Below are positions 2,025 to 26,965 of a stretch of 64,000 nt of DNA, one piece after another. The DNA lies in NCBI GenBank assembly GCA_031271265.1, contig JAISWB010000096.1, positions 1-64,000 on the forward strand, written 5' to 3'. The translations under genes were made by a program, and so were the position numbers. The notes beneath the pieces are model-generated. The model was not told the DNA's origin and ran no database searches. It worked only from the letters and a program-made list of their open reading frames with translations. Position 1 is the stretch's first letter. Each line of letters starts with the position of its first letter. The stretch comes from Desulfovibrio sp. (lineage in GTDB: Bacteria > Desulfobacterota > Desulfovibrionia > Desulfovibrionales > Desulfovibrionaceae).

Positions 2025-2549
2025 ATGACAGAAAGGCTTTATAAATTTTCGTGGGACTTTATCGGTGATGTGGAAGAAGGGCGTCCCAACCTCGGCAACA
2101 CCACGCGCATCGAGGTTTACAGACTGTTCCAGTATACTATGCGGGATGTTCTGGAAGAGAGATTCGGCACGGAAGCCGCGGACCGCATTCTTTACGATGC
2201 CGGACACAAGGCGGGCCTCAATTTTTGCAGGCGATTCGCGGACGGGGAATCGGACCTGAACGCCTACCTTGAAAAAGTCAAAGAGTCGTTGATGGACCTG
2301 AAAATCGGCATCCTGCGCGTTGAAAGCGCCGATACGGCAAAAAGCAACTATGTCCTGACCATTGCCGAAGACCTGGACTGCTCGGGGCTGCCGGACATGG
2401 GGCACACGGTCTGCAATTATGATGAAGGCTTCATCTCCGGCATCTTTTACGCTTTCGGCGGCCAAAAGTTGAACGTCAAGGAAAGCGACTGCTGGTGTAC
2501 CAGTGACCGAACCTGTCGTTTTCAGGTAACCCCACCGTCCCCCACGTGA
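2025..2549 (+). CDS. Stand-alone V4R (4-vinyl reductase) domain protein
   Basis: A 174-residue protein made almost wholly of a V4R domain, the fold that binds small hydrophobic or heterocyclic ligands in bacteriochlorophyll reductases and in ligand-sensing regulators. The C-terminal half shows the family marks CNYDEGFISG, then CWCTSDRTCRF with paired cysteines that could hold a metal. There is no attached HTH, GGDEF or kinase domain, so a role as a ligand-binding sensor subunit or chaperone is inference. The ATG at 2025 follows GGGAGGAGCATATC, a good ribosome binding site. The left neighbour is 950 bp away and the right neighbour is mobile-element debris, so it is probably transcribed alone. 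Confidence 0.8.
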   Translation: MTERLYKFSWDFIGDVEEGRPNLGNTTRIEVYRLFQYTMRDVLEERFGTEAADRILYDAGHKAGLNFCRRFADGESDLNAYLEKVKESLMDLKIGILRVESADTAKSNYVLTIAEDLDCSGLPDMGHTVCNYDEGFISGIFYAFGGQKLNVKESDCWCTSDRTCRFQVTPPSPT

Positions 2550-2739
2550 CGCGGCGGAACAGTAGGCTCAGGCAAGCCTGTTTTTGCCGTGAACGGGATG
2601 CAGGCGCCATTACATACTCCGGCCGGGCAGGCACCCGCTGTTCCGGCCCCGGAGCCTGCGGACGGCACGGCTCTTGACGTTGCGGTAGTAAGGCTTTCAT
2701 GCACTTTGCGGAAGTGGTGTTCACCACGCTGAAACCTGA

Positions 2740-2914
2740 AGTTTCCACAGCTTCGGCAAGGCAGGTATTTCCCGGCATGGCTTCCGAGCCGCGGCACAGG
2801 ATGGAAAAGGCTCCACCTTCGCAAGCAGAATTCTGCTGTGCGGCCTGTGGGTATACAGCGAATGCGGATGTAAATGCAGCAAAAAGGTTCTTCGACGTTC
2901 ACTGTGGAATTTGA
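2740..2914 (+). pseudogene. C-terminal remnant of an IS200/IS605 TnpB (OrfB) gene
   Basis: The 3' part of this frame reads SQAEFCCAACGYTANADVNAAKRFF, which is the second half of the TnpB zinc ribbon with its following ADxNAA motif. Only about 50 residues keep the pattern; the RuvC-like core and the first cysteine pair are gone, and the upstream sequence is out of frame. It is the tail of a decayed transposon-associated RNA-guided nuclease gene. No left or right element end could be fixed. Confidence 0.7.
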
Positions 2915-2989
2915 CGAGATCCTCCTTGCCCGGTAACGAGGTAGCAGGAGGATATGATGAAAGCAGAAGAAGTCTTTACCCTTGGCCTT

Positions 2990-3396
2990 GGTTTGACAGC
3001 GCTCGTGGCGCTTGCCGGGGCAATCGCTTGATACGGAGAAGAACCCCTTTCGCACATAAGCGAGCGATACTTTCACACCAATCAGGAATTTGAGATGTGC
3101 CGCGAGCATCGCGTTCACATTGTCTCCGCTGTAGAAGCCGCGATCCATTGCGAGCTTGATTTTTTTTGTATTCCAGGCAGTCGATATCTGCAATTAGCAT
3201 ACGCTCGTTTCGATGTCGGCTCTTTTTGTGCGGGTTTGCGCTCCCGGGTGGGCACGATTTTTCCGGTCGCCTCGTCAACGCGCCCGATCAGCTTGCGCCG
3301 CGACCGTGGTTGCTGCTTATCCTTGTCCGGGTATGATTCGTTTTCGTAGGCGTATGTGATGCCCACGCGTTTGTCTTTCTGATAGATTATGCCCAT
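2990..3396 (-). pseudogene. IS1634-like (IS4 superfamily) transposase remnant
   Basis: The minus-strand frame from 3396 starts MGIIYQKDKRVGITYAYE and continues to RRKLIGRVDEATGKIVPT, the usual N terminus of IS1634-type DDE transposases. It is then joined, with loss of roughly 130 residues, to a second frame reading AMDRGFYSGDNVNAML and FLIGVKVSLAYVRK, a stretch from the catalytic core that includes the second acidic residue. The C-terminal third is absent. The gene cannot make a working enzyme. The internal deletion suggests old decay rather than a recent insertion. Confidence 0.75.
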
Positions 3397-3413
3397 GCCC
3401 GCCCTCCGTTTTC

Positions 3414-3442
3414 ATAGTGATGATAACATATATCATCACTAT
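3414..3442. repeat. 12-5-12 inverted repeat upstream of the transposase remnant
   Basis: ATAGTGATGATA and TATCATCACTAT form a perfect 12-bp inverted repeat around ACATA, 18 bp upstream of the transposase start. It could be an operator, or a structure shielding the element from outside transcription. No matching copy was found at the other end. Confidence 0.5.
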
Positions 3443-3523
3443 AAAAATGTCAAGCGGAAATATGCCTCCTGCATTGAAATTGCGATACTATTTGGCAGAA
3501 AAACGGCTCACATAGTTATGAAT

Positions 3524-3841
3524 TCACGGGAATGCAGGCTTCAATGCCGAACAGATCGAGGGCAGGGTCCGCTCATGGACGGGGAGATCCACCGCGTTCC
3601 GCCGGCGGGCGGCAAGGAAAGCGAACTGTGACCGCTGATGCTGCGAGTACAGGGCTTCCAGCTTGCGAAGATCGGAGGACAACTTGACCTGCATCAGTAT
3701 CAAGGGGTTGCCGGACGCGGCTGCCATCATTTCCGCCGCATTCGCAGCCTCGGACTGCACATCGTCAATGACCCGCCGGCGAAGATCACCCTTGCGGAAT
3801 TGCTCGATAGCGGCTGCCTTGTACTCTATTGTTTGCCACAT
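3524..3841 (-). pseudogene. Fragment of a large SNF2-type helicase/methylase from a conjugative element
   Basis: The 105-residue frame reads MWQTIEYKAAAIEQFRKG, then VIDDVQSEAANAAEM, then ASGNPLILMQVKL and LRKLEALYSQHQRSQ. This is the pattern I know from the end of the helicase module in very large SNF2/methyltransferase proteins carried by plasmids and integrative elements. An in-frame stop lies six codons upstream and the C terminus runs out of family sequence, so only a small internal piece survives. It marks the left side of an element remnant whose other relic is the ParA-like pseudogene near 8 kb. Confidence 0.55.
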
Positions 3842-4191
3842 TCTGACTTTTCGATATGCTTACAACTATATTGTTTTATTTACTATTTTTATGATAAAAA
3901 ATGTCTATACCCTTAAATATACCCACAAAAAATCTGGATTGGAAGAAATTTTATTGGACGTAGTTGGGCAATCCCACCGAGTTTGGAGAATGGGAAATGA
4001 GAGGGGAAGATTACTTTCTTATTATTCCATTTTTCGCCGTTTAGTCTATATTCTCAGAAATATTTACGGCCACAAGCATAGCAAGTGAATTCTCGACAAG
4101 CACCGGCTACTGGGTAACGGGAACTGGAGTGGCAGCGAGAACCGGAATTGCCGAAACGACGACAAGAGTTTTCACGCTGATCACACCACGC
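3842..4191. other. AT-rich gap without recognisable gene
   Basis: About 350 bp of low-GC DNA between the helicase fragment and the AraC gene. A plus-strand ORF (3663-4088) runs through it but overlaps the helicase fragment and matches nothing I know. I see no promoter or hairpin that I would defend. Confidence 0.4.
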
Positions 4192-4959
4192 TCATCTTTC
4201 ACGGTATCGCCCCGGCGTCACGCCTGTAATTTTTCTGAACATTGCGATGAAGGCGGACGCGCTGGAATAACCGTACTTATGGGCAATCTTCTCTACGGTT
4301 TTACCTTCTTCAATCATGGCTGTAGCCTTAACGACACGCAGTCTGTTTCGCCACTCTGTAAGCGGCATTCCCAAATCCCGCCTGCATTTCCGGGCAAGTG
4401 TCCGTTCCGTTATGTCGGCCTCTTGAGCCAATTCGGCCACGGAGCGGTTATCTTCCGGGTGCTGCTCAAGGTAATACAGGATTTTTTTTACCACTGCATC
4501 TTTGGATGCCGGAAGTAAGATTCTGGCTCTCGACGTTTCCGCCAGTTCGTCAAGTAGGACACGGAGAAGCCGTAAGTGCTTTTCACTGCGAAAATCCCCG
4601 GAAAATTCACGCGCATGGTCAAGAAGAGATCGCATAAAAGGTGACACCAGCAAGGCTTGCGGCGTATCCGGCAAAGCGCCGCAGAGTTCGTTAACGACAT
4701 ACAAAGATGATTGCAAAATTTCCCGCCGTGAAATTCCTACATGCTCCTTGTACGGAGGAACCCAAATGCCATACTGCGGCGGCACAAGATACCGCTCCTC
4801 TTCGACAATTACCTGAACCACACCATTATACGAGTACACGAATTCCCCCCAGGAATGGGTATGAGCCGGAAATATGGCGTCATCCGGCATGAGCGTTGAG
4901 CGCAAATAGAGCTGTGTAGGAAGAGCCTCACTGAAAGGAGCTTGTAGAGAGTGTTTCAT
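4192..4959 (-). CDS. AraC-family transcriptional regulator
   Basis: A 255-residue one-domain-plus-HTH regulator. The N-terminal part is a cupin-like ligand pocket (PAHTHSWGEFVYSYNG, then YGIWVPPYKEH); the C-terminal 100 residues hold two helix-turn-helix units (SVAELAQEADITERTLARKCR, then EKIAHKYGYSSASAFIAMFRK and GVTPGRYR). It reads away from phzF across a 412-bp AT-rich gap, the usual position of a local activator of the neighbouring set phzF-ybaK-paaI-rraA. The inducer is unknown. ATG 4959 fits the family length. Confidence 0.85.
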   Translation of the reverse strand: MKHSLQAPFSEALPTQLYLRSTLMPDDAIFPAHTHSWGEFVYSYNGVVQVIVEEERYLVPPQYGIWVPPYKEHVGISRREILQSSLYVVNELCGALPDTPQALLVSPFMRSLLDHAREFSGDFRSEKHLRLLRVLLDELAETSRARILLPASKDAVVKKILYYLEQHPEDNRSVAELAQEADITERTLARKCRRDLGMPLTEWRNRLRVVKATAMIEEGKTVEKIAHKYGYSSASAFIAMFRKITGVTPGRYRER

Positions 4960-8235: not shown

Positions 8236-8644
8236 GTACAAAAATTCGATGGAGTCACGGTATCTGTTGATTATCCAGAAGACAGCCGATTCTCTCCGCA
8301 TCTCCCGCAAGGCTCCCCGCATGATGCCGCCATAGCTCGCCGTACTGGTCTTGGTTCTGGCGGCGGTATTGATGACGATGGTATGCTCCGAGTAGTTCTG
8401 CACCGTGTCCAGCAGATCGGGCCCACCCATCCACATCGTCAAAAGAGTCCATCAGGCAATGCAGATTCGGCAGGGCGAGGTCTTTATGCGCCTTGAACAC
8501 GTCCTGGTTGTCGGTGTCCGTGGCCACAAGCAGGACGTTCCGTTCCCGGTTCAGAAGATAATCGGTCAGGGCGAAGGAAAGAAGGGTTTTACCCACGCCG
8601 CCTTTACTGCCGCCGATATAGTAAATGTTGAAATTGCCGTTCAT
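8010..8644 (-). pseudogene. ParA/MobD-like P-loop ATPase, frameshifted
   Basis: From ATG 8644 the protein begins MNGNFNIYYIGGSKGGVGKT, a deviant Walker A of the ParA/MinD type used by plasmid partition and mobilisation ATPases, followed by LLVATDTDNQD. Near 8420 an extra C in a CCC run shifts the frame; the next piece (DLLDTVQNYSEHTIVINTAARTKT..., then LYNSSKAREAVEK) continues the fold. At 8118-8123 a short A-run breaks it again before KTLNFPE, and further shifts follow. The gene order fits a mobilisation module of an integrative element. Several breaks make decay more likely than a single sequencing error. Confidence 0.65.
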
Positions 8645-18485: not shown

Positions 18486-20486
18486 TCATCCGCCCGAAGA
18501 AAACAGCGGCGCCGCCCGGCTGACCGCTTCCGAGCCGGCAAAGACATAGGCAATGTCTCCGGCCCGGAGAAGGAAATTCCCGCCGGGATTGGCGACAATC
18601 TCGTCTCCGCGCAGCACGCCGATGACGGTAAGCCCGTGCTTTGCGCGCAACTCGGAATCCGCAAGGCTCACCCCGTCCAGGGGCGATTGCGCTTCCACGC
18701 CGACGGCCGCGACATTGATTTCCGGCATCTGTTTCCGAAGATCCTCCAGGGGGATTCCCGGCACATGCAGCTTGCGGGCCGTGACATAGTTTTCCGCGCG
18801 CACATCGCGCACAAACCTCTCGATATCCGCGCGCGGCACCAGATACCTGGAAAGCACGCGCGTAAAAATTTCCACGGCCGCTTCAAACTCTTCAGGAATG
18901 ACTTCGTTCGCGCCGAGTTTGCGCAGGGCCTCCACCTCGCCGAGAAAATGCGTGCGCACCACGATATGCAGTCCGGGGGCCATGTGCCTTGCCGCTTCCG
19001 TAATACCGCGCGTCGCCGCCGGGTCGGAAATGACGACGGCCAGCACCCCGGCCCGCGCGGCCCCGAGCGCCTGCAGCACTGAAGGATGCGTCGCATCCCC
19101 GTAGCTGATGGGTTCCGTGCCGGCATACGCGCGCACCGTATCCGGATTCATTTCAAGAATGGTGTACGGAATTCCGGCCGATTTGGCCGTCCTTGCCAGG
19201 TACTTGCCCCCTATGCCGAAGCCGATGATGATCAAATGGTCGCGCAGCACCGAGTCTTCCGATGTCGAAACCTCGTCGACGCGCAGTTTGCCGGCGGGCA
19301 GGCGGGCGACGAAGGGCAGGCCGGCAACTTTGGAAGCGAAACGCGGAGCGACAGCTATGAGAAAGGGCGCGGCAGCCATCGTCGCAATACTCGCGGCAAG
19401 AAAAATCTGGTACGAATCGGCCGGCATCAACCCGTGGTCAAAGCCGGCCTTGGCCAGAACAAAAGAAAATTCGCCGATCTGGCAGAGGGCCAGCCCGGCA
19501 ATAATCGCCGGGCGCAACGGATAACCCAGAAGCAGGCTGACCGGCAGCACAATCAGCATCTTGCAAAGCATGAGAAAAATCGTGACGGACGCAATCTCCG
19601 GAAGGTGAGCGGTAAAAAAGTTCAGGTTCAGCAACATGCCCACGGATGTGAAAAAGAGGCTCGTGAACACTTCCTTGAACGGCAATATGCCCTCCAGCGC
19701 GCTGTGGCTGTATTCGGACTCGGACATGATAAGCCCGGCCATAAAAGCTCCCAAAGACAGGGAAAGGCCGAGGGTGGAGGTAATCATGGCGATGGAAAGA
19801 CAGATGCCCAGGGTCGTGATCAGGAACAGTTCCCGGCTGCGCGTTCTCACCACCAGAGCCAGCCCGGCGGGCACCAGTTTGCGCGCCAGCAGAAAGCCTC
19901 CGCCCATCAGCCCCACGGTCTTCAATCCGGACAACAGCAGCTCAATCCCCGTCCCTCCTTCGCTCAATCCGCTCCCGTCCAGCAAGGGAACCGCCAGCAC
20001 CATCGGCACGATGGCCAAATCCTGAAAAATGAGTATGGAAAGGGTAATGCGCCCGTGCGGACTCTCCATCTGCCCGGACTGCTGCAGGATTTTCAACACT
20101 ATGGCCGTGGACGACAGGGCCGCGAGAAAACCCGCGAACAACGCCTTGTTCAGCGACCCGAGCGCGATCAGCGCCACGGGCACAACGGCCAGCGTGGTCA
20201 GCCCGACCTGCAGCGCCCCCCCCAGAAACACCGGCTTGCGCAGGCGCACCAGCTCGCTTACGGACAGCTCCATGCCTATGGAAAACATCAGCAGCACTAT
20301 GCCGATTTCGGCCATCAGTTCCACTTCGTGCACGGCGCTGACCAGACCCAGCCCGTAAGGACCGCAGACTACGCCGGTCAAAAGGAACCCCACCACGGGC
20401 GGAATTTTTATTTTGTGACATCCGTAAATGACGAGTATAGACAAACAAAAGATGGTTACCAGTTGGTTGAGGAGGGACAAATCCAT
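18486..20486 (-). CDS. KefB/CPA2-type cation:proton antiporter with TrkA domains
   Basis: A 666-residue inner-membrane protein. Residues 1-385 form the Na+/H+ exchanger fold (KIPPVVGFLLTGVVCGPYGLG; MFSIGMELSVSELVRL). Residues 413-540 are a TrkA-N (RCK) Rossmann domain, HLIIIGFGIGGKYLARTA, with ISYGDATHP, and residues 575-655 a TrkA-C ligand domain. This is the layout of glutathione- or nucleotide-gated potassium efflux systems. ATG 20486 follows GGGAGCCGGC. It is divergent from the OppF-like gene and convergent with the transglycosylase. Confidence 0.9.
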   Translation of the reverse strand: MDLSLLNQLVTIFCLSILVIYGCHKIKIPPVVGFLLTGVVCGPYGLGLVSAVHEVELMAEIGIVLLMFSIGMELSVSELVRLRKPVFLGGALQVGLTTLAVVPVALIALGSLNKALFAGFLAALSSTAIVLKILQQSGQMESPHGRITLSILIFQDLAIVPMVLAVPLLDGSGLSEGGTGIELLLSGLKTVGLMGGGFLLARKLVPAGLALVVRTRSRELFLITTLGICLSIAMITSTLGLSLSLGAFMAGLIMSESEYSHSALEGILPFKEVFTSLFFTSVGMLLNLNFFTAHLPEIASVTIFLMLCKMLIVLPVSLLLGYPLRPAIIAGLALCQIGEFSFVLAKAGFDHGLMPADSYQIFLAASIATMAAAPFLIAVAPRFASKVAGLPFVARLPAGKLRVDEVSTSEDSVLRDHLIIIGFGIGGKYLARTAKSAGIPYTILEMNPDTVRAYAGTEPISYGDATHPSVLQALGAARAGVLAVVISDPAATRGITEAARHMAPGLHIVVRTHFLGEVEALRKLGANEVIPEEFEAAVEIFTRVLSRYLVPRADIERFVRDVRAENYVTARKLHVPGIPLEDLRKQMPEINVAAVGVEAQSPLDGVSLADSELRAKHGLTVIGVLRGDEIVANPGGNFLLRAGDIAYVFAGSEAVSRAAPLFSSGG

Positions 20487-20569
20487 GCCGGCTCCCGAAG
20501 GGCGGCCCGTTGCGGGCGGGACGGTACAGCGCGCCGTGAAAGCAAGGCAACAACGCAGGTTATGACAAT

Positions 20570-21424
20570 ATGGGCAACTGCGAAGCTAGCGGTAATGCGC
20601 CGGCACCCAAGATAGAGCCTCTCGTCGAATTGCGCAAGTTGAGTAAACACTTCGACCGCGCTCCTTCCCTGACCGCGGGTGCACAGAGCCTGCCCGCGGT
20701 GCGCGGCGTTTCCCTGCGCATCCCGCCCGGCGAAACCCTGGGACTTGTGGGTGAGTCCGGCTGCGGCAAGTCCACCCTGGGGCGTATGGCCGCGGGACTT
20801 CTCGAACCGTCCGGCGGCGACGTGTTCATCAACGGCCTGCCCCTGTGGGATAAAAAAGCGCACGCGGACTACCGGGCCTTCCGAAGAAGTTTGGCCGGGG
20901 TCGTGCAGATGGTTTTTCAGGATCCCTATGCCTCCCTGGACCCGCGCATGAGTATAGGCGACAGCATAGCCGAACCGCTGCTCTGCTCCCGCAGGTCCAC
21001 GAACAGGGGGAGCAAGCCGGCCAAGGATGAAATCCGCGGGCGGGTGCGGGCGATGTTGCGCAAGGTAGGACTGGAAGCTGACGCCGCCGCGCGCAGGCCG
21101 CACGAGTTTTCCGGCGGACAGCGCCAGCGCGTCGCCGTCGCCCGTGCCCTGATTACCGGGCCCGCCTTCGTCGTCTGCGATGAGCCGACCTCCTCGCTCG
21201 ACGCCTCTGTGCAGTCCCAGGTGTTGAATCTGCTGCTGGACCTGCAGGACGAATTCGGCGTGTCCTACCTGTTCATCTCGCACGACCTTGCCGTCGTCCG
21301 GCACATGAGCGACCGCATAGCCGTCATGCGCAAAGGCAGGCTGGTGGAAGAAGGCGATGCCGACCGGATATTTTTTCATCCCGCCGAGGATTATACCCGC
21401 CTGCTTCTGGAAGCGTCGACATGA
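20570..21424 (+). CDS. ABC transporter ATP-binding protein, oligopeptide OppF/DppF type
   Basis: A 284-residue cytoplasmic ATPase subunit. Walker A GESGCGKST, Q-loop MVFQDPYASLDPRMSI (the PYASLDPR form is typical of OppF/DppF), signature FSGGQRQRVAVARAL, Walker B FVVCDEPTSSLD and switch HDLAVVRHM are all intact. OppF-type subunits normally end an operon with a binding protein, two permeases and OppD. Here it stands alone: kefB lies divergent on one side and a repeat-rich gap on the other. The lack of partners suggests a rearrangement or a shared subunit. Confidence 0.88.
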   Translation: MGNCEASGNAPAPKIEPLVELRKLSKHFDRAPSLTAGAQSLPAVRGVSLRIPPGETLGLVGESGCGKSTLGRMAAGLLEPSGGDVFINGLPLWDKKAHADYRAFRRSLAGVVQMVFQDPYASLDPRMSIGDSIAEPLLCSRRSTNRGSKPAKDEIRGRVRAMLRKVGLEADAAARRPHEFSGGQRQRVAVARALITGPAFVVCDEPTSSLDASVQSQVLNLLLDLQDEFGVSYLFISHDLAVVRHMSDRIAVMRKGRLVEEGDADRIFFHPAEDYTRLLLEAST

Positions 21425-21847
21425 CGCGAGACCCCGTTCCGTACCCCGGAAGTTCGGCCTGAGCCGTCGCGGAAAATTTCCCGGAAGGGAATTTTGATCA
21501 GAAAGGCCTTTACGGCCTGCTCCCCCGCCGGGGGCTTCAGGGAGATTCCCGCTTGACGCCGGGCTTTGCCGCGCGTACCTTTCCGGCAATCCCTCCTTCA
21601 GGGAGCGGACATGCCGTCAGGCTCCCCTCCGGCGGGGCGGAGTCATCCGGTGGACGGGGGCGGATCAGCGCTTCTAATTTTAGACTTTTTGGGGAAAATT
21701 TTCCACCTGAGTCGATGGAACCGCAAGAATAACGTCCCGTATTCCCACAGAATCGGCGTTTTGTCCCACCAGCCGATGTTGTAAAACCACAGCCAAGGCG
21801 ACAAGGGGCCATAATTAGGATTGCCGGAGGCGGATGCGGATCGAAGC
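21425..21847. other. Repeat-rich intergenic region upstream of the ABC-3C genes
   Basis: 423 bp without an accepted gene. It holds nested hairpins (AAGGCCTTTACGGCCT, CCCCCGCCGGGGG), two CTTCAGGGAG motifs and a CCGGCGGGGCGGAGTCATCCGG block also found, slightly changed, near 46830. A divergent minus-strand frame ending at 21643 is tryptophan-rich and is discussed as a finding. The promoter of the ABC-3C pair should lie between 21660 and 21830, where the sequence is AT-rich. Confidence 0.5.
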
Positions 21848-22111
21848 ATGGACATACAGGCAACACTTTTACCGAATAAGCACGTCCCGCTCCGCGAATC
21901 CGTTCTGGCGCTGGCAGGGCATATCCGCACGCTGCCTGCGAAGCCGCGCACGCTTGACGAGCTTTGGGCCGAACTCAACCGGGACGCCTCTCCCCGGCCG
22001 GGCAGACCTTCCCTGGACGATGTCGTCTACGCGCTTGACGTCCTGTTTGCCCTTAAACAGGTAACGCTGCTCGACGACGACCGCCGGTTCATACTGGGGT
22101 CGGCGCAATGA
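21848..22111 (+). CDS. ABC-three-component system middle component 6 (MC6)-like protein
   Basis: An 87-residue protein with ATLLPNKHVPLRESVLALAGHI, then TLDELWAEL, then VYALDVLFALKQVTLLDDD, the pattern of the small winged-helix-like MC6 components of ABC-3C conflict systems. These link an ABC ATPase with an effector. The ATG at 21848 gives the usual length; the stop overlaps the next start (ATGA), so the two proteins are translationally coupled. The expected effector gene is not visible. The call rests on recalled family pattern and on the diagnostic partner downstream. Confidence 0.75.
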   Translation: MDIQATLLPNKHVPLRESVLALAGHIRTLPAKPRTLDELWAELNRDASPRPGRPSLDDVVYALDVLFALKQVTLLDDDRRFILGSAQ

Positions 22112-23820
22112 AACTCATCGAACTCTCCTGCAGCCGGCCGTCGTTCAAAACCCTTCGCTTCAACCCTCAAGGACTGACCGTAATTGTCGGAGACGCCGAC
22201 GCCGATATAGAAGGAGATGAAGGCAGCAGCAACGGCGTGGGCAAAACCTTGTCTCTCGGCCTTGTCCACCATTGCCTGGGGGCGCAGGTCAACAACAAAC
22301 TCAAGGCCGCCGTCCCCGATTGGCTGTTTACCTTGCGCTTCAGCCTCGCCGGGAGGGAACATACTATTGCCAGAAGCGGCGACGGCAGCCGTATATACCT
22401 GGATAAAAGCCCTGTCGGAATTAACGAACTGCGAACACGTCTCAATGCCTGCGGCGCGTTCATCCTTGATCAGCAAATTTCCGGACTCACGTTTCGTTCA
22501 TTATTCAGCAGATTTGCACGATACGCCAAAGAAGACTGCCTACATCCGCTGCTCACCAAAAAAGAGGAAGAAGCGGACGGCAGGCTCCGCAGCCTTTTTC
22601 TGTTGGGAATCGATTGTACCCTGGCCGTTGCCAAAAAAAATGACAGAATACGTCTTGTGCAAATAAAGAATACAAAAAAAACATGGAATGAAGATCATAT
22701 TTTACAAGATATCATGCGGGCAGGCAGTAATCCGCGGGCGCGATTTGAAGAGATTGAACAGGAAATTCCCAAATTATCCGCAGCGCTGCATAAATACCAA
22801 ATAGCGGAAAATTACAGGCTGCTGGAATGGCAGGAAAGCGAAATAACCAAGCAGCTCAGGAAAATTGAACGCGAAATTGCCGGGTTGGAGTTTCTGTTGG
22901 AGGAAATGGAAAAACGCCTGGAGGATCCGCAGGATATTACTGCCGCCGCATTGCGTTCATTGTACGACGGTCTGGGCGATATCTTCAAACCCGAGGCCTT
23001 GGAGCGTTTTGAAAAAGTTGAAGCCTTTCATAACAAGCTCTACGCAAGCAGAAAAATACGCCTGGAGAAAGACAGGCTTGCCGTTCTCGGCAAAAAACAC
23101 CGGCTTGAGCAGGAGTATAAAAACAAAGCTGTTGAGCGAGACCGGTTTGTAAAAAATCTGCAAGCCGAAAGGGCGCTTGATGAATATGTGGCCCTGGCGA
23201 AACATCTTGCATCGCTTGAGGAAGAACGCAACAGATTATACATGTTTTTTGAGATGGATATGACGCTCGACCTGCGCGCCCGTGAAATTCGCGAGAAAAT
23301 ACTTGCCGACGACAGCGCCGCTGACGAATATTTGCGCAGTAATCCTCTTGCGGAGCTTTCCGAAAGATTTACGCGTCTCGCCCACATGCTGTACCCCAAT
23401 GATCCTGCCGGGCTGATGATCAGTAACAATACGGGCGACAACCAACTCCGCTACGACATTTCAGTTAAAATTGAAGGTGATGATGCGGACGGTATCAATT
23501 CGGCAAGGATATTGTGTTTTGACTGGACGTATTATATGTACGGCGCAAACCATACCATGGATTTTTTATGGCATGACAACAGGCTGTTTGCCCATATCGA
23601 CCCGCACCCGCGCGCAGCATGGTTCAGCTATGTTCTGCAGCATTCCGCACAGGCTCAAAAACAGTATATAGTTTCACTCAATACGGAAAACCTGGTGAGT
23701 ATGAAAGGGTATATGTCACAGGAGGCCTGGTCGGCCTTGAACGAAAGTATCCGGCTGACGTTGCACGGTGATAAACCGGAAAACAAACTCCTGGGCATGC
23801 AGTTCGGCAGTGCCGGGTAA
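22108..23820 (+). CDS. ABC-three-component system ATPase with DUF2326 C terminus
   Basis: A 570-residue SMC/RecN-like ATPase. The N-terminal lobe has a Walker A in GSSNGVGKTLSL; residues about 225-430 are coiled coil (EEIEQEIPKLSAAL, LEFLLEEMEKRLED and so on); the end matches DUF2326, with RILCFDWTYYMYG, DFLWHDNRLFAHIDP and QKQYIVSLNTENL. DUF2326 ATPases are the motor of ABC-3C systems, thought to sense invading nucleic acid and switch an effector. The gene looks lower in GC and richer in AAA lysine codons than the core genes, which suggests transfer. A missing effector makes activity uncertain. Confidence 0.82.
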   Translation: MKLIELSCSRPSFKTLRFNPQGLTVIVGDADADIEGDEGSSNGVGKTLSLGLVHHCLGAQVNNKLKAAVPDWLFTLRFSLAGREHTIARSGDGSRIYLDKSPVGINELRTRLNACGAFILDQQISGLTFRSLFSRFARYAKEDCLHPLLTKKEEEADGRLRSLFLLGIDCTLAVAKKNDRIRLVQIKNTKKTWNEDHILQDIMRAGSNPRARFEEIEQEIPKLSAALHKYQIAENYRLLEWQESEITKQLRKIEREIAGLEFLLEEMEKRLEDPQDITAAALRSLYDGLGDIFKPEALERFEKVEAFHNKLYASRKIRLEKDRLAVLGKKHRLEQEYKNKAVERDRFVKNLQAERALDEYVALAKHLASLEEERNRLYMFFEMDMTLDLRAREIREKILADDSAADEYLRSNPLAELSERFTRLAHMLYPNDPAGLMISNNTGDNQLRYDISVKIEGDDADGINSARILCFDWTYYMYGANHTMDFLWHDNRLFAHIDPHPRAAWFSYVLQHSAQAQKQYIVSLNTENLVSMKGYMSQEAWSALNESIRLTLHGDKPENKLLGMQFGSAG

Positions 23821-23935
23821 TGCTGATTCCCGGCCGATAAACATACGGAAGCGCGCGGATGGATTATACCATAGAAAGTGTTTATCAATAGATAGACCTG
23901 TTACACGAAAAAGCAATTACATCAGCATTACCGGT

Positions 23936-23959
23936 CCGGCAGCGGGGATACGCTGCCGG
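23936..23959. terminator. Hairpin downstream of the ABC-3C genes
   Basis: CCGGCAGCG and CGCTGCCGG form a perfect 9-bp stem around GGGATA, 116 bp after the ATPase stop. No T-run follows, so a Rho-independent role is unsure. Confidence 0.4.
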
Positions 23960-24013
23960 TGCGGCGGTGTATCCCGCGGCGCGCCATTCCGACTTTTTCA
24001 AAGTTGAACATCC

Positions 24014-24691
24014 CTATTGCCCCAGTAGAATAACCTCTTCCACATTCATGGAATAGACGATGCCGCCGCCGGGCTCGGCCAGGGTCGGCACTTTCCGGAT
24101 TGCTTCAAGGATCGGGGAAACCAGGGCTTTTTCCGCAACTATCATAAGCACTTCTTTTTCCGGCACCAGGGTGATGCCGAAAAATTTCACGTCTTCCTTG
24201 GACGCCGTGCCGCGTCCGACCAGAATGGTGCCGCCGCGCGCGCCGGCGTTTCTGGCCTGGGCCATTACATCGTCGGCATAGCCGTTGTTCACGATAACCG
24301 TCAGCAGGGTGTATCCGGATTCCATTTTTTCACTCCTCGCGCCGGCGGCGGGCTCTGTGTCGTCGGCGGTGTTCCTGGATTGGCGGACAAGCATGCCGGA
24401 CACGTCCAGCACAAGGGCGATGCCGGCCGGCTTTTTGGGTTGCCCGCGGCAGGTCGAGCGCACGGCACTGATTACGGAGTCCGCTTCGTCCCGCAGAAGT
24501 GTGAAGACGATATCCTGCTGTACATCAGCCAGGAAGAGGGCCTGCAAAATTTTGCTGTCCGCAACCGCGCGGCCGAACGCGATGGTGCCGCCGCGCGCGC
24601 CGGCCGCCTTGGCGACGGCCATGAATTTTTCGCCCTTGCGGCGGCCCACCATGCTGATGAGCAGTTTTCCGGGCAAGAAGGTTAAACTCAT
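24014..24691 (-). CDS. Double PII-like regulatory protein
   Basis: A 225-residue protein made of two PII-like ferredoxin-fold domains in tandem: residues 5-105 (ISMVGRRKGEKFMAVAKAAGARGGTIAFG) and 125-225 (LLTVIVNNGYADDVMAQARNAGARGGTILVG). Both keep the GARGGT loop where PII proteins have the T-loop base. No adenylation or uridylation tyrosine is evident. Its stop side is free; its start overlaps the end of the DUF1538 gene by 4 bp, so it probably gates that membrane protein as GlnK gates AmtB. Having both domains fused is unusual, since PII proteins act as trimers of single domains. Confidence 0.75.
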   Translation of the reverse strand: MSLTFLPGKLLISMVGRRKGEKFMAVAKAAGARGGTIAFGRAVADSKILQALFLADVQQDIVFTLLRDEADSVISAVRSTCRGQPKKPAGIALVLDVSGMLVRQSRNTADDTEPAAGARSEKMESGYTLLTVIVNNGYADDVMAQARNAGARGGTILVGRGTASKEDVKFFGITLVPEKEVLMIVAEKALVSPILEAIRKVPTLAEPGGGIVYSMNVEEVILLGQ

Positions 24692-26190
24692 GATTCGCTG
24701 TCCCCCTTGAGAAACGCGTCCCGCTGTTTCCCGCGTTTTTCCAGTCTGTGGAAAATCATGCCCAGGAGTTGGATAGTGATGAGCGGCCCCATGGCGATCA
24801 TGGCGATCATGCCGAAGGCGTCGGTGGCCGGGTTCCCGCCGCAGGCCATGGAAGCGCCGAGGGTAAGGGAGAGGACAAAGGTCGTCGCCATGGGGCCGGA
24901 AGCTACCCCGCCGGAATCAAAGGCTACGGCCGTGAACAGCGGCGGGCAGAACATCGTCAAAACAAGCGCCAGAGCGTAGCCGGGGATGAGCACGAACCAG
25001 ATGCTCATGCCGGTGACGACCCGGAGCATACCGAGAACCACGGCCGCCGCAATACTGACGGAAAGGGCCGCGAACATGATCTTGCGCTGAATGTATCCCC
25101 CCGAGATTTCCTCGATCTGCCGGGTAAGTATCCAGACGGCCGGTTCCGCGCACACCACCACGGCTCCCAGGAGAAATCCGACGGGGAGAAGAGCCGCCTC
25201 CGAAAAGGAACCGAGGGCGAAGCCGAGCGATTTCCCCACCGGTGAAAATCCGCCGGAAACGCCTGTCATGAAGGCCACCAGTCCGATATAGGCATAGATA
25301 AAGCCGAAAAGCATGCGCTTCAGCTTTTCCGCGGGCAAGTGCAGCAGCAGGATCTGGAAAATGACGAAAATAACCAACAGGGGGAGCAAGGCCAGGGCTA
25401 TTTCAACCACGATGTGGGGCAGAACGGATGCAAAGACATCCATGCCGGACAGCGCCGCGGCTGCGCCCTGTTCGGCCGCGGCTTCGGACATGCGGCTGCC
25501 GGAAGTCAGCCCGAACACTGCCACCGCAGCGACAGGCCCGATGGACGCGAGGCCGACCAGGCCGAAGCTGTCGTCGCCGTCGGCATGGTCCTTCCTGCTC
25601 TTGGCCGACGCCACACCCACGCCCATGGCCATAATGAAGGGAACGGTGACGGGGCCCGTGGTGGCGCCGCCGGCGTCAAAAGAAACCCCCACAAAACCGG
25701 GGTCCACCAGGGAACATACGCCGAAGAGCGCGATATAGAACCCTATCAGGAGGTAGCGCAGGGGAACCTGCATGACGATGCGTCCCGAGCCGATCAGCAG
25801 GAAAAAACCGACGCCGGCGGCGATCATCATGAGCAGCAGGGTTCTGTCCATGCCGGGCATGATGCCGGAAACCTGCGCCGCCAGAACCTGTACATCCGGT
25901 TCCGCGATCGTGACGGCGAACCCGATGGCGAAGGACGCGGACAGCATGAGGGAAAGGCTGCGTTTGCGCGTCAGGGCGGACCCGACCAGCCGGCCGAAAG
26001 GCACCATCCAGATTTCCGCGCCGAGCAGAAAAATACTGAGGCCCAGAATAAGCAGCACGCCGCCGACCAGAAACTGCGGAAGCTGTCCTTCGCCTAGAGG
26101 GGCTATGGTCAGGTTGAGCAGCACCACGATGACCATTATGGGGACAACAGAAATCGTGGATTCCTTAAATTTTTCAAAAAAATCAGACAT
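24688..26190 (-). CDS. DUF1538 integral membrane protein (two-repeat transporter-like)
   Basis: About 500 residues with some 12 hydrophobic segments arranged as two homologous DUF1538 halves. The repeat is visible as VDPGFVGVSFDAGGATTGPVTVPFIMAMGVG in half one and FTAVAFDSGGVASGPMATTFVLSLTLG in half two. The paired FDSGG/FDAGG loops suggest a substrate or ion path at the centre. The substrate is unknown. ATG 26190 follows GGAGGAGTGTCTTTA; GTG 26199 is too close to that site. It overlaps the double PII-like gene, which is likely its regulator. Confidence 0.8.
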   Translation of the reverse strand: MSDFFEKFKESTISVVPIMVIVVLLNLTIAPLGEGQLPQFLVGGVLLILGLSIFLLGAEIWMVPFGRLVGSALTRKRSLSLMLSASFAIGFAVTIAEPDVQVLAAQVSGIMPGMDRTLLLMMIAAGVGFFLLIGSGRIVMQVPLRYLLIGFYIALFGVCSLVDPGFVGVSFDAGGATTGPVTVPFIMAMGVGVASAKSRKDHADGDDSFGLVGLASIGPVAAVAVFGLTSGSRMSEAAAEQGAAAALSGMDVFASVLPHIVVEIALALLPLLVIFVIFQILLLHLPAEKLKRMLFGFIYAYIGLVAFMTGVSGGFSPVGKSLGFALGSFSEAALLPVGFLLGAVVVCAEPAVWILTRQIEEISGGYIQRKIMFAALSVSIAAAVVLGMLRVVTGMSIWFVLIPGYALALVLTMFCPPLFTAVAFDSGGVASGPMATTFVLSLTLGASMACGGNPATDAFGMIAMIAMGPLITIQLLGMIFHRLEKRGKQRDAFLKGDSES

Positions 26191-26326
26191 TAAAGACACT
26201 CCTCCGCGCTTGGGCGCCGGCGGAATCGCCGCCGGACGTCAAGTCTCCGGAACAGAAACCTTGAAGAGGAAACACTCCAAAGCAGGTTGTTGAAAATGCT
26301 TCAACGATGTTGATCCGGGACCGGCA

Positions 26327-26965
26327 TTATTCCAGGCTGATGCCGCGTTCTTCCAGAACAGCCGTGACCTGATTGTAGACATCATCAAGGGGCTGCGAGG
26401 CGTCCACCGTGCGGCAGCGTTGCGGATATTGCGCAGCCAAGGCCAGGTAGCCCTGCCGGATGCGCCGGTGGAAATCCAGGCGTTCAGTTTCAAAGCGGCC
26501 CTGAGTGACGGCAACTCCTGCATCCAGATTGCGCCGGCGGGCGCGTTCCAGGCTGGTTTCAGGGTCCAGATCAAAGATGATCGTGAGGTCGGGCCACAGG
26601 CCGCCGGTGGCGAACCCGCACAGGCTGGTCAGCCGCTCCAGGTTCATCTCCCGTCCGTGTCCCTGATAGCAGAGCGTTGAGTCTATGTAGCGGTCGGAGA
26701 ACACGATGTCTCCCCGTTCCAGGGCGGGGGAGATGACCTCGCTCACATGCTGGGAGCGGTCGGCAAGGTACAGGAACAGTTCCGCCTCTTTCGTCAGGTT
26801 GCTCCGCTTGTCCAGAAGCAGGGCACGGAGTGACCTGCCGAGTTCGCTGCCTCCCGGTTCGAGAGTTCGCACAAAGGAAATGCCTTCATCGGAAAGGGCG
26901 GGGCACAAGCGGTCCAGAATGCTTGTCTTTCCCGAGCCTTCAATACCTTCAAAGGTAATAAACAT
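26327..26965 (-). CDS. tmk: Thymidylate kinase
   Basis: Tmk phosphorylates dTMP to dTDP for DNA synthesis. The 212-residue protein starts MFITFEGIEGSGKTS (P-loop), then TLEPGGSELGRSLRALLLD and SDRYIDSTLCYQGHGRE, the DR(Y/F) motif that positions dTMP. LID-region arginines appear as LERARRRNLDAG. The length is standard. It lies 49 bp downstream of the HD-domain gene on the same strand, probably one operon. Confidence 0.95.
   Translation of the reverse strand: MFITFEGIEGSGKTSILDRLCPALSDEGISFVRTLEPGGSELGRSLRALLLDKRSNLTKEAELFLYLADRSQHVSEVISPALERGDIVFSDRYIDSTLCYQGHGREMNLERLTSLCGFATGGLWPDLTIIFDLDPETSLERARRRNLDAGVAVTQGRFETERLDFHRRIRQGYLALAAQYPQRCRTVDASQPLDDVYNQVTAVLEERGISLE

Follow-up and report, generated by a model that had tools for sequence, protein, structure and literature searches.

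Two overlapping genes of an ABC-3C conflict system with no effector gene beside them raise the question whether such a pair has lost its effector, is served by one encoded at a distance, or constitutes a two-gene variant of its own, the three options named in the original prediction for this locus. The pair lies in what we call the window, the whole 64,000-nucleotide stretch of Desulfovibrio sp. DNA analyzed here.

Identity and surroundings of the gene pair

The first gene (21848–22111, + strand) encodes a small adaptor of 87 aa, the LmuC-like middle component, and the second (22108–23820, + strand) a LmuB-like coiled-coil ABC ATPase of 570 aa. Both predicted family assignments passed their HMM cut-offs: the adaptor, which could be aligned with 12 other MC6 proteins, scores 39.2 bits against the Pfam family MC6 (PF20293; cut-off 27.2, E 7.2e-10), and the ATPase 113 bits against DUF2326 (PF10088; cut-off 28.7, E 1.2e-32) over residues 426–566, the domain being the C-terminal half of the split ATPase domain (23383–23805, + strand). 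The adaptor also lies barely above the Pfam MC7 cut-off (29.2 vs. 27 bits). The PADLOC model PDC-M68B (PDLC04774) spans the whole ATPase (residues 3–566, E 5e-69), and PADLOC's LmuB models match it only faintly (E 0.007–0.012). As predicted, the genes are intact and their limits exact, the ATPase start ATG at 22108 falling within the MC6 stop codon to give a 4-bp overlap, ATGA (22108–22111, + strand). Judged from these matches, the pair is of the MC6/DUF2326 type of ABC-3C (Lamassu superfamily, PADLOC PDC-M68). The ATPase is the single DUF2326 protein in its genome and carries a Walker A motif, GSSNGVGKT (residues 39–47, 22222–22248, + strand), of which N42, G45, and K46 are found in all four species that carry the pair (see below). 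SMC-like ATPases of the LmuB type have a short coiled coil and often a zinc hook; in the present sequence there is no CPxC motif. A structural model, poor in quality (pLDDT 50), places long helices at residues ~209–428; a PDB search by sequence returned no useful relative, and no viral or phage relatives were found.

Upstream of the pair lie a kefB-type transporter gene and then one for an oppF-type transporter ATPase (20570–21424), and the ATPase is followed by genes for a P-II domain protein and a DUF1538-like membrane protein (a label from sequence alone) and by tmk. There is no effector gene adjoining the pair on either side, as had been claimed. The 423-bp gap before MC6 is indeed repeat-rich and consists of two dispersed repeat families that recur dozens of times in the genome: one of ~131 bp (21535–21665), with more than 30 copies elsewhere in this genome and present in most genomes of the genus, and one of ~162 bp (21666–21827), of which this genome has four other near-complete copies and genome G127 many. 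Neither family has an Rfam match, and no Rfam families were found within the 64-kb window. An effector remnant in the gap could be ruled out, the gap being made of dispersed repeats and a tblastn search there with the effector of the closest relative outside the genus (L018, see below) being blank.

Of the two genes, only that of the ATPase shows the lower GC content noted earlier (49.6%, with 60–64% in oppF, kefB, tmk, and lud); MC6, at 63%, is not lowered relative to its neighbours. Acquisition of the pair is plausible, given its presence in only four of the 15 genus genomes, the low GC of the ATPase gene, and a nearest relative in Methylococcales; the repeat gap, by contrast, drops out as evidence for it, the repeats being present in 10 of the 15 genomes and absent at this site from the congeners carrying the pair. 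Elsewhere in the window, overlapping transposase-like frames (2522–3396, - strand) resemble a broken insertion element, and a ParA-like short frame of 129 aa (GGSKGGVGKT; 8255–8644, - strand), in a low-GC stretch at ~1–9 kb, is possibly a cut-off mobile-element gene.

An effector present in homologues and absent from the genus

In all 32 core homologue loci outside the genus, the survey of neighbours with a profile of the effector C-terminal domain (CTD) found this domain encoded directly before MC6; the profile had been built from nine loci, so that 23 of the 32 lay outside it. The closest relative outside the genus is the locus L018 of a Methylococcales MAG (ATPase 47%, MC6 42% identical), where a 316-aa gene directly precedes MC6. 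Its product matches Pfam CTD10 (E 4.7e-15), the domain by which ABC-3C effectors dock, and the PADLOC family PDC-M68A, and its N-terminus matches LmuA. At least 44 plasmid records contain a relative of the ATPase, in all examined cases together with an effector; among them are plasmids from Streptomyces, Vibrio, Cupriavidus, Rhodococcus, Phaeobacter, and others, most of which are annotated with the same three genes. The effectors are diverse: by eye, their N-termini are nuclease-like in several and HNH-like in others (two are annotated as HNH), and the CTDs of the MC6/DUF2326 type share 17–24% identity with that of L018. A few loci depart from the common pattern. A distant MC6/DUF2326 locus (L103, genome G233, 3296–4433) has a truncated upstream effector frame beside transposase-like frames: in this distant subfamily, outside the core type, an effector has been interrupted independently. 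Another locus that is not of the core type (L100) has a 191-aa gene without CTD hit upstream of the pair, and on a Cupriavidus taiwanensis plasmid (L033, NZ_CP016951) the ATPase departs from the family in its C-terminal region, inside the DUF2326 part, with an effector and MC6 that look normal.

Within the genus, the pair is present in the window and in three congeneric Desulfovibrio sp. MAGs (L015, L016, and L017), whose ATPases are 90–91% identical to that of the window, and at none of these four loci did the CTD profile detect an effector. The effectorless state is thus not confined to the window. Nor did a search for an unlinked gene succeed: none of the 15 genus genomes has a CTD10 match above the Pfam cut-off, the CTD profile found no effector in them although it gave one in eight of eight control genomes, and the L018 effector as query had no hit in the window's own genome and no convincing one in the genus. 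A weak match to the CTD region in G131 (E 0.025) was dropped, as the CTD profile gives it no support. We also ruled out an effector domain fused onto the ATPase, which is collinear with that of L018 (570 vs. 563 aa). Between oppF and MC6, L016 has only 53 bp, and L015 and L017 carry a 6-kb block on the other strand, to which L017 adds an amidase-like gene; this block looks like a liv-like branched-chain amino acid transporter, which ruled it out as the hiding place of an effector.

The window pair thus resembles L018 and the other MC6/DUF2326 systems (PDC-M68) in gene order and in the overlap of MC6 with the ATPase gene, but differs from L018 and all other core homologues in having no CTD10 effector before MC6. 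With Lamassu type I it has in common that there are two genes, one encoding a probable SMC-like ATPase; the type I pair is one of effector and ATPase, whereas that of the window is one of adaptor and ATPase without effector. Type I was indeed first described as two genes (PMC12409362). The Lamassu superfamily takes in ABC-3C (PMC10586767), and with its type II, or DdmABC (LmuABC), the pair appears to share an SMC/Rad50-like ATPase, along with a small middle protein, but lacks the LmuA/DdmA effector and has an ATPase that resembles the LmuB models weakly. The pair would at best work like the sensor half of an ABC-3C/Lamassu system. Of the three components by which ABC-3C is recognized, the DUF2326 ATPase and an MC6 gene directly before it were found and the CTD10 effector was not, and for this reason the pair is to be classed with effectorless derivatives and not among complete ABC-3C systems.

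In a midpoint-rooted tree of 44 ATPases, the four sequences of the genus form one clade (100/100), which is sister to the effector-bearing L018 (100/99), then to L033 (100/97), and then to a Vibrio–Arcobacter group (99/95), three nodes in succession, all with starred support, enclosing this orphan clade among effector-bearing systems. Because of this nesting, the simplest scenario places a single loss on their stem, and the four Desulfovibrionaceae species probably descend from an ancestor that already lacked the effector but kept the sensor pair. On this long stem, the loss may have come before or after the entry of the pair into the genus. In the nearest relative without the pair (G125), oppF and tmk lie on separate contigs with other neighbours, so that the junction at which the pair lies is a rearranged one. 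The P-II and DUF1538 genes, which lie beside kefB in G125 (L080, L081), are found between the ATPase gene and tmk in the window (18486–26965), a change of position that is a local rearrangement around the pair.

Selection on the retained genes

The ATPase is under strong purifying selection and as constrained as its housekeeping neighbours: its dN/dS is 0.12–0.13 in all six comparisons among the four species (dS 0.34–0.56), as compared to 0.09–0.18 for tmk and 0.15–0.18 for oppF. In a neutral simulation, only 0–0.6% of such ORFs stayed free of stops, with ~5–10 stops expected in a neutral ORF. Across the four species, nothing in the oppF–tmk interval can be aligned except the pair itself, the spacers having turned over on both sides, with the exception of the extra block common to L015 and L017. 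Since the loss predates four species that keep both genes under selection, the effectorless state is no fresh deletion, but a stable two-gene form. Two of the options posed at the outset therefore stand together: loss fits best, with an effector in all 32 homologues and an orphan clade nested among them, and a stable two-gene form fits as well, being kept in four species.

MC6 has a dN/dS of 0.25–0.38. The ratio of MC6 to ATPase protein divergence is 2.3–2.7 in five of the six orphan comparisons, versus 0–1.4 in effector-bearing pairs, and in the sixth (L015–L017) it is 1.3, within the effector-bearing range. This hints that MC6 changes about twice as fast relative to the ATPase as in effector-bearing pairs, few of the comparisons being independent, and such quicker change would fit the loss of an effector-binding face.

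Walker A and the H489–D490 pair are intact in the orphan ATPases; the latter lies in FLWHDN (residues 486–491, 23563–23580), which appears to be Walker-B-like. The orphans keep 35 of 44 near-invariant positions, as compared to 38 in L018. They have in common the changes S460A, R500H, D554G, and F230Y, of which F230Y, S460A, and D554G are among those absent from L018. Residue 460 (23485–23487), within the DUF2326 domain, is by its position the presumed signature serine. Together, these changes could mean a weakened ATPase action.

Possible roles of the effectorless pair

With all three components present, the coiled-coil ATPase and the small adaptor would recognize aberrant DNA and hold the CTD-docked effector until activation frees it. 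LmuB, which is related to Rad50, is the likely sensor and is thought to recognize aberrant DNA, and the variable C-terminal domains of the effectors may serve as docking stations (PMC10586767). Once freed by activation, LmuA forms an active tetramer (PMC12409362, addendum). In the orphan pair, the killing step is unavailable because the effector is gone. The reading we lean towards is that the effector was lost before the ancestor of the four species and that the pair was retained as a predicted ATP-dependent DNA clamp with a non-killing role for the host. Adaptor and ATPase would still form a complex that clamps onto DNA structures and might now, e.g., hold or shield DNA ends or stalled forks.

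We favour such a host-serving clamp over three other explanations. A diverged or differently built effector, encoded elsewhere or on an unbinned plasmid, might dock on MC6 in trans, the system still killing infected cells. Both retained genes are intact and constrained, as for a working system; plasmids are often missing from MAGs, and homologous systems do occur on plasmids. We nevertheless consider this unlikely: the CTD10 and L018 searches described above gave no convincing effector, the chance that an unlinked chromosomal effector was missed in all four drafts (95, 86, 78, and 67% complete) is ~0.0005 by arithmetic from the completeness values, and the faster-evolving part is MC6, on which the effector would presumably dock. 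The same plasmid-borne systems, with their effectors, suggest another use, in which the pair would act like an orphan antitoxin and capture the effectors, or occupy the triggers, of complete ABC-3C systems on incoming plasmids, against which the host would thereby be protected. Since a Lamassu complex releases its effector on activation (PMC12409362), it is conceivable that an empty complex takes one up again. Low identity among the CTDs makes cross-binding doubtful, and quicker change of MC6 is unexpected if selection acts on effector binding, so that we hold this to be quite improbable.

Finally, the two genes might be a decaying remnant that persists by chance on its way to loss after the deletion of the effector. 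The missing effector, the changed conserved sites, the faster MC6, and the unconserved spacers would all agree with decay, but the uniformly low dN/dS of an ATPase intact in four species at this divergence, and the rarity of intact ORFs under simulated neutral drift, make it the least credible of the explanations and, in our view, very improbable.

The favoured reading, a pair retained as a host-serving clamp, bears on how these systems are seen. ABC-3C and Lamassu are understood as suicide devices in which a DNA sensor frees a toxic effector, and the retention of the orphan pair under strong selection suggests that the sensor is of some use by itself. Tentatively, one might go further and see here the domestication of a conflict-system sensor, i.e., an effectorless Lamassu-type ATPase–adaptor that has become a stable two-gene unit handling aberrant DNA for the host. 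A literature search among open-licence papers turned up no description of an effectorless MC6–DUF2326 clade under selection. A clade of this kind under housekeeping-level selection is a natural case of separation of function; it makes testable whether an SMC-like sensor is useful alone, and offers a non-toxic ATPase–adaptor pair for biochemistry.
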